From Chloroflexota bacterium (lineage in GTDB: Bacteria; Chloroflexota; Anaerolineae; Anaerolineales; E44-bin32): DNA of 64,000 bases. The notes under the pieces were generated by a model. It was not told the DNA's origin and did no database searches. It was given only the letters and a program-made list of their open reading frames with translations. A program made the translations under genes and the position numbers. Location of the stretch: contig JADFRQ010000001.1 in the NCBI GenBank assembly GCA_022561215.1, positions 1 to 64,000 on the forward strand. Reading direction: 5' to 3'. Positions 3,489 through 63,262 of this stretch are shown here, piece after piece; position 1 is the stretch's first letter, and every line of letters begins with the position of its first letter.

Positions 3489-4223
3489 GTGCAGGGAAAT
3501 GTCCTCGCGGTCGATCTTGCCTCCCGAAAGTATAAAGATGTTGGAATTGCACTTCTTCGGGCTGACGCTGTGGAAGTAAAATTCCTAAAGGCCGAGGATC
3601 TTGGTCTGAGCGGCAAACCCTTGGCTTCAGATATGGCCCCAGCGCTTAATCGATTTTGCTGCGATCAAGACGTAACGGTTCTGATTCTTGATGGCCCCCA
3701 GGGTTGGAAATCCCCCCATACTGGCATTAACCATATGCGCATTGCTGAACGCGTGCTTAATACCCCCGCTAAAACAGGTGTGATCGGCCATGTGAAACCA
3801 GGTTCGGCGCTGCGCTATGTGGCATTTTCGATCAGCCTTTTCCATGGCTTGCGCGTCAATTTTGGCTGGAGTCTGCTTATCAGCAATTGGCAAACAGCGA
3901 AGAGGGAACGTTGGGTTGTAGAAGGATTTCCCACATCAGCCTGGAAAACGCTTGGGTTGTCGAGCCTGCCCGCCAAATCCCGAACACAGCGTGAAGAACT
4001 TATTCATTGGGCCAAAGAGTACGAGATCGTATCCGGGTACCACATAGGATCGACTTTTACCCACGACGGTCTGCAAGCAGCAGTATTGCTTCCCGCGGCG
4101 ATGGCAATTCAGTCCCAAAATGTCAACGGAGTGGTTCTCTCAGGTATGAATCCGCGCTATACAAGGGCTGGCGATGTGCTGGAGGGATGGATTGTAAATC
4201 CACGTGTAAATGATGATTTTTGA
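3489..4223 (+). CDS. DUF429-like hypothetical protein (predicted nuclease-like fold)
   Basis: N-terminal AVDLASRKYKDVGIALL and TGVIGHVKPGSALRYVAFSISLF; family assignment from memory of DUF429-type proteins. Confidence 0.5.
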   Translation: MQGNVLAVDLASRKYKDVGIALLRADAVEVKFLKAEDLGLSGKPLASDMAPALNRFCCDQDVTVLILDGPQGWKSPHTGINHMRIAERVLNTPAKTGVIGHVKPGSALRYVAFSISLFHGLRVNFGWSLLISNWQTAKRERWVVEGFPTSAWKTLGLSSLPAKSRTQREELIHWAKEYEIVSGYHIGSTFTHDGLQAAVLLPAAMAIQSQNVNGVVLSGMNPRYTRAGDVLEGWIVNPRVNDDF

Positions 4224-5816: not shown

Positions 5817-7415
5817 TTACAATCTCTTCAGCATGTAATTTTCGCCCAGTGCATAGCCCAGACGGGCATAGTAGCCGCGTGTTCCCACTGCGGCGATTAC
5901 GGCCATTCGCGAATAATTTTTCCGCCGGCCAATTTTTTCAGCACGCTCCATCAAACGGCTCCCCAGGCCCTGGTGCTGCGCGGCTCCCATCTGTTCTTCG
6001 CCGATCGACAACGATTGACCATACACATGCACTTCGCGAATTAGCGCTGCGTCATCTAAATCAACTAGCTTCAGCTCGGGAGTGTTTCCATTGGGCAGGG
6101 AAAGACGAAGATAGCCTGCTAAGTAGTCCTCCGGTGTATCAAAAGCCAAGAAATGTTCAGTGGATCTGGCGGAGGTGTACACATGTTCATGCAGCTCTAG
6201 TTTCCCTGGATCGATGGAACGACCGCGTACCTCACGACAGCGAATACACTCGCAATGCAGCCCGCGTCGCGATAATTCATGCTGAATATCTTGACGCAAA
6301 CTCGTGCGTTTATTACCTTCAACGACGTTGGTAGAGGGAATATCGCGCACAATACGATTAACTCTACAGTAGCGTGGAATATGAATCTTTATATCCGCGA
6401 TGAGATCGATTAATTCCTCCGTCGTGTAAGGGATATACTCCCCTCTTTTCCAATAATCGTACAATTCCGCATTGCTCAGCAATTGGCATGGATAAATCTT
6501 GATCTCATCAGGGAGCAAATGGGGATCGGTCCAGAGATGTTTAAAGTCCTCGCGATCAGACTCCAAAGTTGCGCCAAGCAAGTTTGGCATCCAGTGCATT
6601 ACAATCTTAAATCCAGCCGCTCGCAGCAATGCCGTCGCGTGACGCGTCTCGGCGACGAGATGCCCCCTGTTATTTTGTTCCAGGATTGCGTCATTCAAAC
6701 TCTGCACACCAAGCTGAATTTTAGTCACCCCCAGCATCCGTAACCGGCGCACTTCATCGGGGGTCACCCAGTCCGGGCGCGTTTCAATCACCAGACCTAC
6801 ATTTTTATGCCGCGCATCTCCGTTCTTCCCTTGCGCTTCCTGGAGCGTACGCGCTTCAAAACCGTTCATGGCATCGAAGCAGCGCTTTAAAAACCACTCC
6901 TGATAGTCCTTCTTGTATGAACTCCAAGTACCACCAAGAACTAGAAGTTCAATTTTTTCGGTTGGGTGACCGATGGCATAAAGCGCTTCGATCCTTGCCG
7001 AGGTTTGCAAAAAAGGGTCGAAATCATGATGCAGTGCGCGCATCGCACCGGGCTCATCCGGCAGGTAGGATTTTGGCATGCGGGCATCGGTTGGACAGAA
7101 AATGCACTTTCCCGGGCATGGATAAGGTTTGGTGAGTACGGTGACTGTTGTTACGCCTGATAACGTGCGCGAGGGTTTCATTCGAATCTTGCGCAGGAAA
7201 GTTGGATCGAATGTCCATACGCCATTGTTGGTAAGCTGGCGGTACACATGCACAAGCAGAGGCTTGCCAATGAATCCCCCCTCAGGCTGGGGATGTGCGC
7301 GTGTAGCCTGATCTAGTTTTACACCCTCCCTTACATCTTCGAGGATTTCCCTCGCCAGCTGCAGTTGGAAAGTTTTGTAATCACGCGCTTTAAGCCATAC
7401 TTCCCGCGTAGGCAT
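5817..7415 (-). CDS. elp3: Elp3 family protein: radical SAM + GNAT acetyltransferase (tRNA uridine-34 modification)
   Basis: TVLTKPYPCPGKCIFCPTD radical SAM cysteines, ELLVLGGTWSSYKKDYQEWFLKRCFDAMNGF, GVTKIQLGVQSLNDAILEQNNRGH, RIVRDIPSTNVVEGNKRTSLRQDIQHEL, CECIRCREVRG, C-terminal GNAT RGYYARLGY. Confidence 0.93.
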   Translation of the reverse strand: MPTREVWLKARDYKTFQLQLAREILEDVREGVKLDQATRAHPQPEGGFIGKPLLVHVYRQLTNNGVWTFDPTFLRKIRMKPSRTLSGVTTVTVLTKPYPCPGKCIFCPTDARMPKSYLPDEPGAMRALHHDFDPFLQTSARIEALYAIGHPTEKIELLVLGGTWSSYKKDYQEWFLKRCFDAMNGFEARTLQEAQGKNGDARHKNVGLVIETRPDWVTPDEVRRLRMLGVTKIQLGVQSLNDAILEQNNRGHLVAETRHATALLRAAGFKIVMHWMPNLLGATLESDREDFKHLWTDPHLLPDEIKIYPCQLLSNAELYDYWKRGEYIPYTTEELIDLIADIKIHIPRYCRVNRIVRDIPSTNVVEGNKRTSLRQDIQHELSRRGLHCECIRCREVRGRSIDPGKLELHEHVYTSARSTEHFLAFDTPEDYLAGYLRLSLPNGNTPELKLVDLDDAALIREVHVYGQSLSIGEEQMGAAQHQGLGSRLMERAEKIGRRKNYSRMAVIAAVGTRGYYARLGYALGENYMLKRL

Positions 7416-7432
7416 ACGTATATAATCTCCCT

Positions 7433-8164
7433 ATGCGCCAAGACATCCTTCAGCGCCTGCTCGACCTCAATCATGAATTCTACCAAACCTTTGCCCAGCC
7501 ATTCTCGGAGACCCGCCAAAGGTTACAACCCGGCGTACTCCAGGCTATCGTGGATTTAGCACCGGGAACTTCAGTGCTCGATTTAGGATGTGGCAACGGA
7601 ATGTTGGCCAAAACACTGTATGAAGCTGGGCATCGCGGCACTTATGTAGGCCTCGACTCAAGCAAAGCACTTCTTGGCGAAGCGCTGGTGGATAATCCGC
7701 AATCCAATGCGACATTTCTTGAGATCGATCTTGCGCGTGATAACTGGGCCTCCAGCCTTCCAGGATCATTTGACCGAATTTTTGCGTTTGCCGTGTTGCA
7801 TCATATTCCTAGAGCACAGCTAAGAATAAAAATCGTCAAAACGATCGCTTCATTAATGGCCGAAAATGGACTTTTTATCTTTTCAGTCTGGAATTTTCTT
7901 GCCAACCCTCGATTTCAGAATCGTATCCTTCCGTGGAAAAAAATCGATCTGCAGGAGGATGATCTCGAGTCTGGAGATTATCTTCTTGATTGGAAGCGCG
8001 GTGGATATGGATTACGTTATGTGCACTCCTTTGAAGCACAAGAACTGCAAATACTGGCTCGCGAGTCTGCTTTTGAGCCCGTTCGACGTTATAAATCTGA
8101 CGGAAAAGACGGAAAAAGTGCTGAATATCATATCTGGAAACTCACATCCGACCCGCAGCTTTAA
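7433..8164 (+). CDS. class I SAM-dependent methyltransferase, Trm9-like
   Basis: VLDLGCGNG SAM motif I; FSETR near N-terminus, AVLHHIP, LFIFSVWNF, LPWKK, LRYVHSFEAQELQ, which resemble the Trm9 layout (FSQTR, AVVHHWS, ALIYCWAL, YYHLYREGEL); divergent to elp3. Confidence 0.75.
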   Translation: MRQDILQRLLDLNHEFYQTFAQPFSETRQRLQPGVLQAIVDLAPGTSVLDLGCGNGMLAKTLYEAGHRGTYVGLDSSKALLGEALVDNPQSNATFLEIDLARDNWASSLPGSFDRIFAFAVLHHIPRAQLRIKIVKTIASLMAENGLFIFSVWNFLANPRFQNRILPWKKIDLQEDDLESGDYLLDWKRGGYGLRYVHSFEAQELQILARESAFEPVRRYKSDGKDGKSAEYHIWKLTSDPQL

Positions 8165-8297: not shown

Positions 8298-8385
<88 letters not shown>

Positions 8386-8459
8386 TTGCAACCGGGTCAT
8401 GCTCGGCCCGCATGGAAAGAAGATGGGGTATCCAGGAGTTTGCGGGAAACTCGCTCTTG

Positions 8460-8550
8460 GGGGAGGTGCCAGAGTGGTTGATCGGGGGCGCCTGCTAAGC
8501 GCTTGTAGGGGCTTAAACCTCTACCGTGGGTTCGAATCCCACCCTCCCCG
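8460..8550 (+). tRNA. tRNA-Ser(GCU)
   Basis: Acceptor GGGGAGG/CCTCCCC, anticodon loop CTGCTAA, long variable arm, GTGGG-TTCGAAT-CCCAC T-arm. Confidence 0.95.
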
Positions 8551-8625
8551 CTTAAGACTTTTCGGAGCGTGTTCAAGGAATGGCAACGGGAGTCAGATGG
8601 CTACGTTGCCGCAGGAGTTCGAATT

Positions 8626-8698
8626 GCCCTCGTAGCTCAGCGGATAGAGCACTTGCTTGCGGAGTAAGGGGTCAGGGGTTCAAGTCCCTTCGAGGGCG
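8626..8698 (+). tRNA. tRNA-Arg(GCG)
   Basis: Acceptor GCCCTCG/CGAGGGC, D-arm GCTC/GAGC, anticodon stem CTTGC/GTAAG with loop TTGCGGA (anticodon GCG), T-arm AGGGG-TTCAAGT-CCCTT. Confidence 0.88.
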
Positions 8699-8703
8699 CT
8701 ACG

Positions 8704-8914: not shown

Positions 8915-9535
8915 TCAAAAATCCGGCCATGGCTGGTAAAAATCCTGGGGCAGCACTGCGCTTTGGGGATCAAGGTAGCCGGCATCAAAAATCTCTTTCG
9001 CCAGCGGCAAACCAACATAGCGCAGATGCCAGGGCTCCCAACGGTATTCGGTAACCACCGCGCTCCAGCGATTGTTGTAGGGCCATTCGCGGATTGCCTT
9101 CAATGGGAACGAAATCACAAAACCGAACTCATGCGCCCTGGCTTCCAAAGCGGACCACAATTTTCGATTTCGAGAATCATTGTATTCGATCGGCAATCCG
9201 GCCCATGCCACGTCAAAAACTGTGCCCAATTGGTGTTCAGAATGCCCGGGTCTCGCAATCACTTCGTCGGCCCGTTCTTCACCCTCATCGGACATCAAAC
9301 GAACAAAAGCCTCCGCCTGACTGCTGTACGAGCGATAATCGCTCATCACCTCGACGGGTAAGTTGATCTCCTTAATCAAGAAGTCCAGAGCATTACGGGC
9401 ATCCGTGTGGTTTCCCGGAGCGTACCACAATGGCACCCTATGCTCCTTATTCACAAGGGTATTAAGAGGTGCGCCGAGTAGCAGGTGTAGCACGACATAT
9501 AGCTGCAGCAGTCCTGGAATTTCATCCCCTCCCAT
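8915..9535 (-). CDS. D-alanyl-D-alanine carboxypeptidase, VanY-like
   Basis: DYRSYSSQAEAFVRL...ARPGHSEHQLGTVFDVA...WEPWHLRYVG motifs. Confidence 0.92.
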   Translation of the reverse strand: MGGDEIPGLLQLYVVLHLLLGAPLNTLVNKEHRVPLWYAPGNHTDARNALDFLIKEINLPVEVMSDYRSYSSQAEAFVRLMSDEGEERADEVIARPGHSEHQLGTVFDVAWAGLPIEYNDSRNRKLWSALEARAHEFGFVISFPLKAIREWPYNNRWSAVVTEYRWEPWHLRYVGLPLAKEIFDAGYLDPQSAVLPQDFYQPWPDF

Positions 9536-9854: not shown

Positions 9855-11027
9855 TTAAGGGAGGAAATTCCAGGGATTGACGCGTCCATAAATATCATTC
9901 AGCATCTCAAAATGAAGGTGTGGCCCCGAGGAACGTCCCGAGCTGCCCATGGCGCCTATGGAAGTTCCTTGAAAGACTCCGGTTCCGCAACCAGCAAAAA
10001 CTGAGTCCAAATGCGCATACAATGTTTGCCAACCGTTGCCATGATCGAGGACGATAACATTGCCATACCCCCCATTATGCCAACCGGAATACACAACGAC
10101 TGCTGCATCCACCGCGAAGATCCCGTACCCAAAATCCCCACCAATATCAAGACCATAGTGGTTTGTGGATGGTGAATAATCATATCCCGAGATGTATTGC
10201 GAACTTGTTGGCCAAACGAAAGTACCGAAGCCTATGGGGCCATCGAAAATTGTCCCGCATGCTCCTGGCCCATAAATACTTGCCACACTGGGGTTCGAAC
10301 GCGGGATCTTTGGTAGCGCCCAGGAAACGAATTCACGCTTTCCACCGGGAATAATAATCATGGTTTCTGGTGGAATGTCGGTTTCTTCCAAATCAATATC
10401 TGGGGTGAGATTATTCCCTGGCCAATCGATAATTTCGCGCGCGGCCACTTCGAAAAATTCGGCGATCCCAATTAAGCTTTCCCCCTGTGACCACAAATGG
10501 ATGGTTCCATCGACCGGTGCGATATTCAATATTTGGCCTGGTTGTAAACTGTGAGGATCATCCTGCAGGACGTCAAAATTTCCCCACAATATGGTTTCCG
10601 GTTTCAGACCAAACTTATCCGCAATACCAAATAAAGAATCTCCTGTTTGCACCTCGTAGAATACGATATCCAAGCGCGGCCGGCTGGGGATAATGGTATG
10701 CACGTCAAGCTTGCGATTAATCTGAGCAGCTGCAATTGGCTCACCTTCAAAACGAAGCAAATCGCGTAAATCAACGCTTTGGTATTCAGGCCGGACAGCC
10801 GACTCCTCGAGCAATGGGTCCGATGTTGGTTTTGATTGCAATCCAAGCTTGGCAATCCACCCACCCAATACGATGATGCTGAGCAAGAACAAGTGGCTCA
10901 GGTAGCGTCTCCAGGGCGAGAATATCTCCCGATTCATGATCCCCTGAGCTAACCGGCGAAGGATGAATTCGCCTTCCTGCTTTTCATCTGGCGTTTCATT
11001 TTCAGGGGCATCATCGTTATTTAACAT
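9855..11027 (-). CDS. LysM domain M23 family metallopeptidase
   Basis: LysM-like YEVQTGDSLFGIADKFGLKPETILWGN; M23 NHYGLDIGGDFGYGIFA...VIVLDHGNGWQTLYAHLD...GPHLHFEM. Confidence 0.93.
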   Translation of the reverse strand: MLNNDDAPENETPDEKQEGEFILRRLAQGIMNREIFSPWRRYLSHLFLLSIIVLGGWIAKLGLQSKPTSDPLLEESAVRPEYQSVDLRDLLRFEGEPIAAAQINRKLDVHTIIPSRPRLDIVFYEVQTGDSLFGIADKFGLKPETILWGNFDVLQDDPHSLQPGQILNIAPVDGTIHLWSQGESLIGIAEFFEVAAREIIDWPGNNLTPDIDLEETDIPPETMIIIPGGKREFVSWALPKIPRSNPSVASIYGPGACGTIFDGPIGFGTFVWPTSSQYISGYDYSPSTNHYGLDIGGDFGYGIFAVDAAVVVYSGWHNGGYGNVIVLDHGNGWQTLYAHLDSVFAGCGTGVFQGTSIGAMGSSGRSSGPHLHFEMLNDIYGRVNPWNFLP

Positions 11028-63062: not shown

Positions 63063-63191
63063 CGGTTACTCCAACTTGAATCCAATCCTGTGCACCTGTG
63101 TGCATGCCTTTGATTCATGAATAATGTATTCAGGGGGGAGAAAAAAGATGTGGGAAAAGGTACGTCAGTGGAATTCAAAATATGTTCAAGG

Positions 63192-63262
63192 CTGGGGCGC
63201 CAGGATTCGAACCTAGATTAACGGATTCAAAGTCCGCTGTGCTGCCGTTACACCACGCCCCA
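63192..63262 (-). tRNA. tRNA-Gln(UUG)
   Basis: Minus TGGGGCG TG GTGTAACGGCAGCAC...GGACTTTGAATCC (anticodon TTG), GGTTCGAATCC T-arm, CGCCCCA acceptor. Confidence 0.94.

Follow-up and report, generated by a model that had tools for sequence, protein, structure and literature searches.

Two divergent genes lie head to head in the window, that is, the whole 64,000-nucleotide stretch of Chloroflexota DNA analyzed here. One encodes a complete Elp3 and the other a Trm9-like class I SAM methyltransferase (Table 1). Both open reading frames (ORFs) are located as described in an earlier sequence-only reading, which had also proposed that they form a two-gene pathway leading from cm5U to an mcm5U-like nucleoside. 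A consensus promoter scan of the spacer between the two start codons returned no match, the scores being no better than those of shuffled sequences. As for the surroundings of the pair, tRNA genes Ser-TGA, Ser-GCT, and Arg-GCG (8298-8699) are found directly downstream of the methyltransferase gene. Two ordinary cell-wall genes, coding for a VanY-type carboxypeptidase (8915-9535) and a LysM/M23 peptidase (9855-11027), are present on the minus strand, and a 244-aa ORF with a GTG start (3489-4223) gave no Pfam match.

Table 1 Features of the elp3-methyltransferase locus, in window positions
Feature	Position	Strand	Remarks
elp3	5817..7415	-	ATG at 7415; 532 aa; radical SAM and GNAT; tRNA U34 carboxymethyl enzyme by family
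CPGKCIFC codons, radical-SAM motif of Elp3	7095..7118	-	C100, C104, C107; aligned to D. mccartyi Elp3 C23/C27/C30
Spacer separating the ATG codons of the divergent genes	7416..7432		17 bp
Trm9-like class I SAM methyltransferase	7433..8164	+	ATG at 7433; 243 aa; Pfam, family profile, trees, AlphaFold2
FSETR motif of the methyltransferase	7502..7516	+	Residues 24-28; R28 = ScTrm9 R29
HH of AVLHHIP in the methyltransferase	7799..7804	+	= ScTrm9 H115/H116 (alignment)
W153 of the methyltransferase	7889..7891	+	= ScTrm9 W145 (alignment)
Two predicted beta strands and RYVH, where Trm9 has its lid	7976..8026	+	Residues 182-187, 193-198; R195 = ScTrm9 R241; AlphaFold2, alignment

Archaeal Elp3 is known to form cm5U34 in vitro. 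With TIGR01211 (cut-off 350), the window Elp3 scored 513 bits, and Pfam placed radical SAM and GNAT domains over its full length. A PDB search matched archaeal, bacterial, and eukaryotic Elp3 structures with E-values down to 7e-120, the closest solved relatives being the archaeal and Dehalococcoides mccartyi enzymes. The radical SAM cysteines are all kept, as are the three linker cysteines (388, 390, and 393), and residues K77, K193, E386, and Y441 of D. mccartyi Elp3 correspond to K154, K270, E461, and Y515. The prediction of a full Elp3 carrying CPGKCIFC and a GNAT domain was thus borne out, with catalytic residues intact; none of the acetyl-CoA-site residues listed in PMC6367351 is missing. 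One difference from D. mccartyi Elp3 (5L7J), which is also bacterial and from the Chloroflexota, is an N-terminal extension of ~80 aa that the latter lacks. Elp3 has long been discussed as a protein acetyltransferase, and PDB entries still say histone acetyltransferase, so that bacterial Elp3 could be imagined to act mainly on proteins, the methyltransferase being part of an unrelated regulatory pair. We consider this highly improbable, as tRNA, and not peptides, elicits a response from bacterial, archaeal, and eukaryotic Elp3 (PMC6367351), and the mutual exclusion of Elp3 and MnmG described below fits a tRNA role.

The domain models gave the methyltransferase only generic labels. Pfam returned Methyltransf_23/12/31/25/11, that is, class I families only, and the NCBIfam labels were likewise generic, with scores below every specific cut-off. 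The alternative of a COG2226/UbiE-type enzyme was examined on this basis, and the scores for UbiE (19.8 bits vs 216), UbiG (36.6 bits vs 102.95), and BioC (31.5 bits vs 184.95) were all below the curated cut-offs. When the window methyltransferase alone was compared with the PDB, Trm9 appeared far down (E 0.0014). A family profile was then built from 24 Chloroflexota sequences and searched against 177,635 PDB sequences; its best match was the Y. lipolytica Trm9 (5cm2_Z, 5.6e-14). This alignment spans profile positions 25-223 and runs into the C-terminal block, while the other matches listed end at ~130-170. Indeed, the likeness to Trm9 that had been claimed through the C-terminal block extends beyond the SAM domain.

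The structural comparison was less specific. An AlphaFold2 model of the window methyltransferase (pLDDT 95.6) placed two strands where Trm9 has its lid, a region described in PMC5372719. In a Foldseek search of the PDB with this model, Trm9 5cm2 ranked 7th by E-value, with several small-molecule methyltransferases above it, and had the highest target-normalised TM-score (0.79) and the highest identity (21%) among the 50 matches listed. Foldseek was weakly informative here and alone does not single out Trm9. In two trees, yeast Trm9s and the methyltransferases linked to bacterial Elp3 formed a group separate from 13 outgroups (support 97/91 and 98/89). A position of Trm9 immediately outside the clade of bacterial enzymes was not rejected by an AU test (p 0.45), and nested and sister placements are both compatible with the data. 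The yeast Trm9 query sequence matches 5cm2 at 4e-71, and its numbering fits the published mutants. Both profile and tree place the window methyltransferase nearer to Trm9 than to the other methyltransferases.

Five residues of yeast Trm9, namely R29, H115, R241, Y243, and N271, strongly affect activity when mutated (PMC5372719). By alignment, the equivalents of the first three are kept in the window methyltransferase, and Y243 and N271 are not, being V and A instead. The motifs quoted in the sequence-only reading are all present: FSETR (24-28), AVLHHIP (120-126), LPWKK, and LRYVHSFEAQELQ. Among the aligned bacterial family members, R29 is conserved in 43/43 (compared with 2/13 outgroups), H115 in 38/43, and R241 in 40/43, and the equivalent of W145 is invariant (43/43) and absent in the 13 outgroups. 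Positions 243 and 271 are variable across the subfamily of the window protein, and all five activity residues are found in the seven Dehalococcoidia members aligned (7/7). Because Y243 and N271 are replaced, we filed the window protein as a Trm9-like relative and not as Trm9 itself; it is a member of the Trm9 family and not a demonstrated Trm9 orthologue.

These two changes leave room for a related product. The methyltransferase could act on U34 in the Elp3 pathway and yield something other than plain mcm5U, for example by methylating another cm5U-derived side chain or a 2-thio form to give a related ester. Both differing positions belong to the predicted substrate pocket and vary within the subfamily, and a Haloferax nucleoside was suggested in 2008 to be similar, not identical, to mcm5s2U (PMC2584109). 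However, conservation extends to R29, H115, R241, and the putative lid region, and the Dehalococcoidia members have lost none of the five Trm9 residues, which makes such a product unlikely in our view.

The pairing of the two genes extends far beyond the genome of the window. The methyltransferase is encoded in 51 of the 52 Elp3-positive Chloroflexota genomes, and it is adjacent and divergent to elp3 in 47 of the 52, Dehalococcoidia included. All 25 sampled genomes of the order to which the window belongs encode it, as do three more of its class; in 24 of these 28 genomes the gene is divergent to elp3 and no more than 2 kb away, and in 4 it is unlinked. A 29th match, in genome G159, was weak and proved to be an unrelated methyltransferase that was not counted. 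A single-sequence search had left the Dehalococcoidia Elp3 without a partner. This was overturned when the Elp3 flanks were read with the family profile: a divergent Trm9-like neighbor, as in the window, was present in 23/23 genomes with a Dehalococcoidia-type Elp3, usually within ~20-140 bp. The sole partnerless Elp3-positive Chloroflexota genome is G192 (locus L194, G192:C7:11000-18940), where no Trm9-like partner was found near elp3 or in a genome-wide protein search; its contig ends soon after the elp3 locus.

When bacterial and archaeal genomes were scanned with Trm9 as the seed, full-length matches came mainly from Patescibacteria and Chloroflexota, and the pair was also found in one Ignavibacteriales and one 'Deltaproteobacteria' genome. 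In this same scan, Elp3 was nearby in 34/44 loci of the methyltransferase family, as opposed to 0/17 loci of generic methyltransferases. When Elp3, instead of the methyltransferase, was used to sample Patescibacteria loci, a methyltransferase gene of this family was found within 1.5 kb in 20 of the best 30 Elp3 loci. Six other neighbors in the window were followed across 41 loci of the pair: five never reappear and the sixth, an ABC transporter, does so once, so there is no general synteny around the pair. The pairing is not chance, because it recurs throughout the Elp3-positive Chloroflexota and in other phyla and the other neighbors do not. The methyltransferase of the Ignavibacteriales metagenome-assembled genome (G303, locus L078) groups with a Komeilibacteria sequence; this pair may result from transfer or from a mis-binned contig.

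These data also bear on the alternative of a generic class I methyltransferase, with a small molecule or a protein as its substrate and an incidental or regulatory adjacency to elp3. The generic or sub-cut-off Pfam and NCBIfam results would agree with this, as would the small-molecule enzymes that give the best Foldseek E-values. We nevertheless rejected this explanation as very unlikely, given the linkage, the co-inheritance with Elp3 across Chloroflexota and other phyla, the failure of other window neighbors to recur save for that one transporter match, and the conservation of Trm9-specific residues.

In textbooks, bacteria modify U34 through MnmE/MnmG, which makes cmnm5U/mnm5U34 and targets the same position, C5 of U34, with enzymes and chemistry unrelated to those of the pair. 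Among 301 Chloroflexota genomes, 52 have Elp3 and 122 have MnmG; none has both, where 21 would be expected (P ~5e-14), and at the family level (18 families with Elp3, 31 with MnmG) there was again no overlap (P ~5e-5), these P values being guides only since the genomes are related. The MnmE N-domain was detected in none of the 30 Elp3-positive Chloroflexota genomes checked, and TrmE_N was present in exactly the 6 MnmG-positive genomes among 46. The genome of the window is ~91% complete, and its own lack of MnmE/MnmG therefore rests mainly on its relatives. By the models used, both Elp3 and MnmG are missing from ~127 of the 301 genomes, including several near-complete ones (for example, G037, G208, and G283). 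Among the 34 genomes reached through the Trm9-seeded scan, MnmG was found only in the Ignavibacteriales one, G303, which encodes a full MnmG alongside the pair. Of 287 Patescibacteria genomes, 107 encode Elp3 and 6 encode MnmG, none having both; as MnmG is rare there, this test is weak.

The sequence-only reading had noted that no Trm112-like partner is visible in the window. This is correct as far as linkage to the pair is concerned, but an 83-aa Trm112-like ORF is present elsewhere in the genome (25.9 bits, cut-off 22). A Trm112 match was obtained in 27/28 Chloroflexota genomes with the pair, some of them weak, and in 2/17 of the Patescibacteria-like pair genomes searched, one of them weak. 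Trm112 dependence looks unlikely in Patescibacteria, because most of the pair genomes searched there gave no match.

We propose that the two genes are probably a conserved bacterial wobble-uridine module that converts cm5U to mcm5U in place of MnmE/MnmG. Elp3 would use acetyl-CoA and radical SAM chemistry to place a carboxymethyl group on C5 of U34 (cm5U), and its Trm9-family neighbor would then use SAM to methylate the cm5U carboxylate, giving an mcm5U-type U34. The pair would take the place of MnmE/MnmG, missing from the sampled host genomes. The substrate pocket in the subfamily of the window departs from its yeast Trm9 counterpart at two positions, and Trm112 may be dispensable. The gene-level evidence for this pathway (the genes, their family relationships, linkage, co-occurrence, and exclusion of MnmG) is strong, and from it we infer the chemistry, namely the substrates, the order of the reactions, and the mcm5U product. 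The two-gene pathway of the sequence-only reading therefore stands as regards the Trm9 family, the linkage, and the exclusion of MnmG, and is weakened by the two replaced residues as regards its product; a Trm9 signal and conservation of the pairing in other genomes, the two points on which it could be challenged computationally, were both found. We also lean toward a broader proposal, held with less assurance: several phyla would possess a complete stand-alone Elp3 to Trm9-like mcm5U34 pathway replacing MnmE/MnmG, probably without Trm112 in Patescibacteria, and the eukaryotic Trm9 lineage would be akin to, or descend from, the bacterial enzymes linked to Elp3.

Eukaryotes employ both enzyme families, in the order proposed here, as Elongator (Elp1-6) with Trm9-Trm112 or ALKBH8-TRMT112. 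The Elp3 catalytic residues and the Trm9 residues R29, H115, and R241 are shared with that mcm5U34 pathway, and strands of the lid type are predicted in the window methyltransferase. In contrast, the bacterial Elp3 stands alone, the genes are adjacent and divergent, Y243 and N271 are replaced in the window protein, and the Trm112-like ORF is unlinked in the window genome, with most pair-bearing Patescibacteria searched giving no match. Archaeal homologues of Elp3 and Trm9 were reported in 2008, clustered in Sulfolobus solfataricus, and homologues are known in Haloferax volcanii (PMC2584109, PMC5372719). These clusters, likened here from literature descriptions, combine the same Elp3 and Trm9 homologue, whereas the present module is bacterial, occurs in several phyla, and stands in for MnmE/MnmG. 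No bacterial relatives of Trm9 were reported in a 2017 review (PMC5372719), and a limited literature search found nothing linking bacterial Elp3, that of D. mccartyi included, to a Trm9-like partner.

A eukaryote-type U34 route in large bacterial groups without MnmE/MnmG would provide these bacteria with a means of modifying the wobble base, and mcm5U-type nucleosides are accordingly predicted for bacterial tRNA. The pair also points to a likely functional partner for the structurally studied Dehalococcoides-type Elp3, would offer a two-protein system for the study of cm5U methylation without Elongator, and bears on the origin of eukaryotic Trm9. Within the window itself, the tRNA-Gln(TTG) gene at 63190-63262 encodes a potential U34 substrate.
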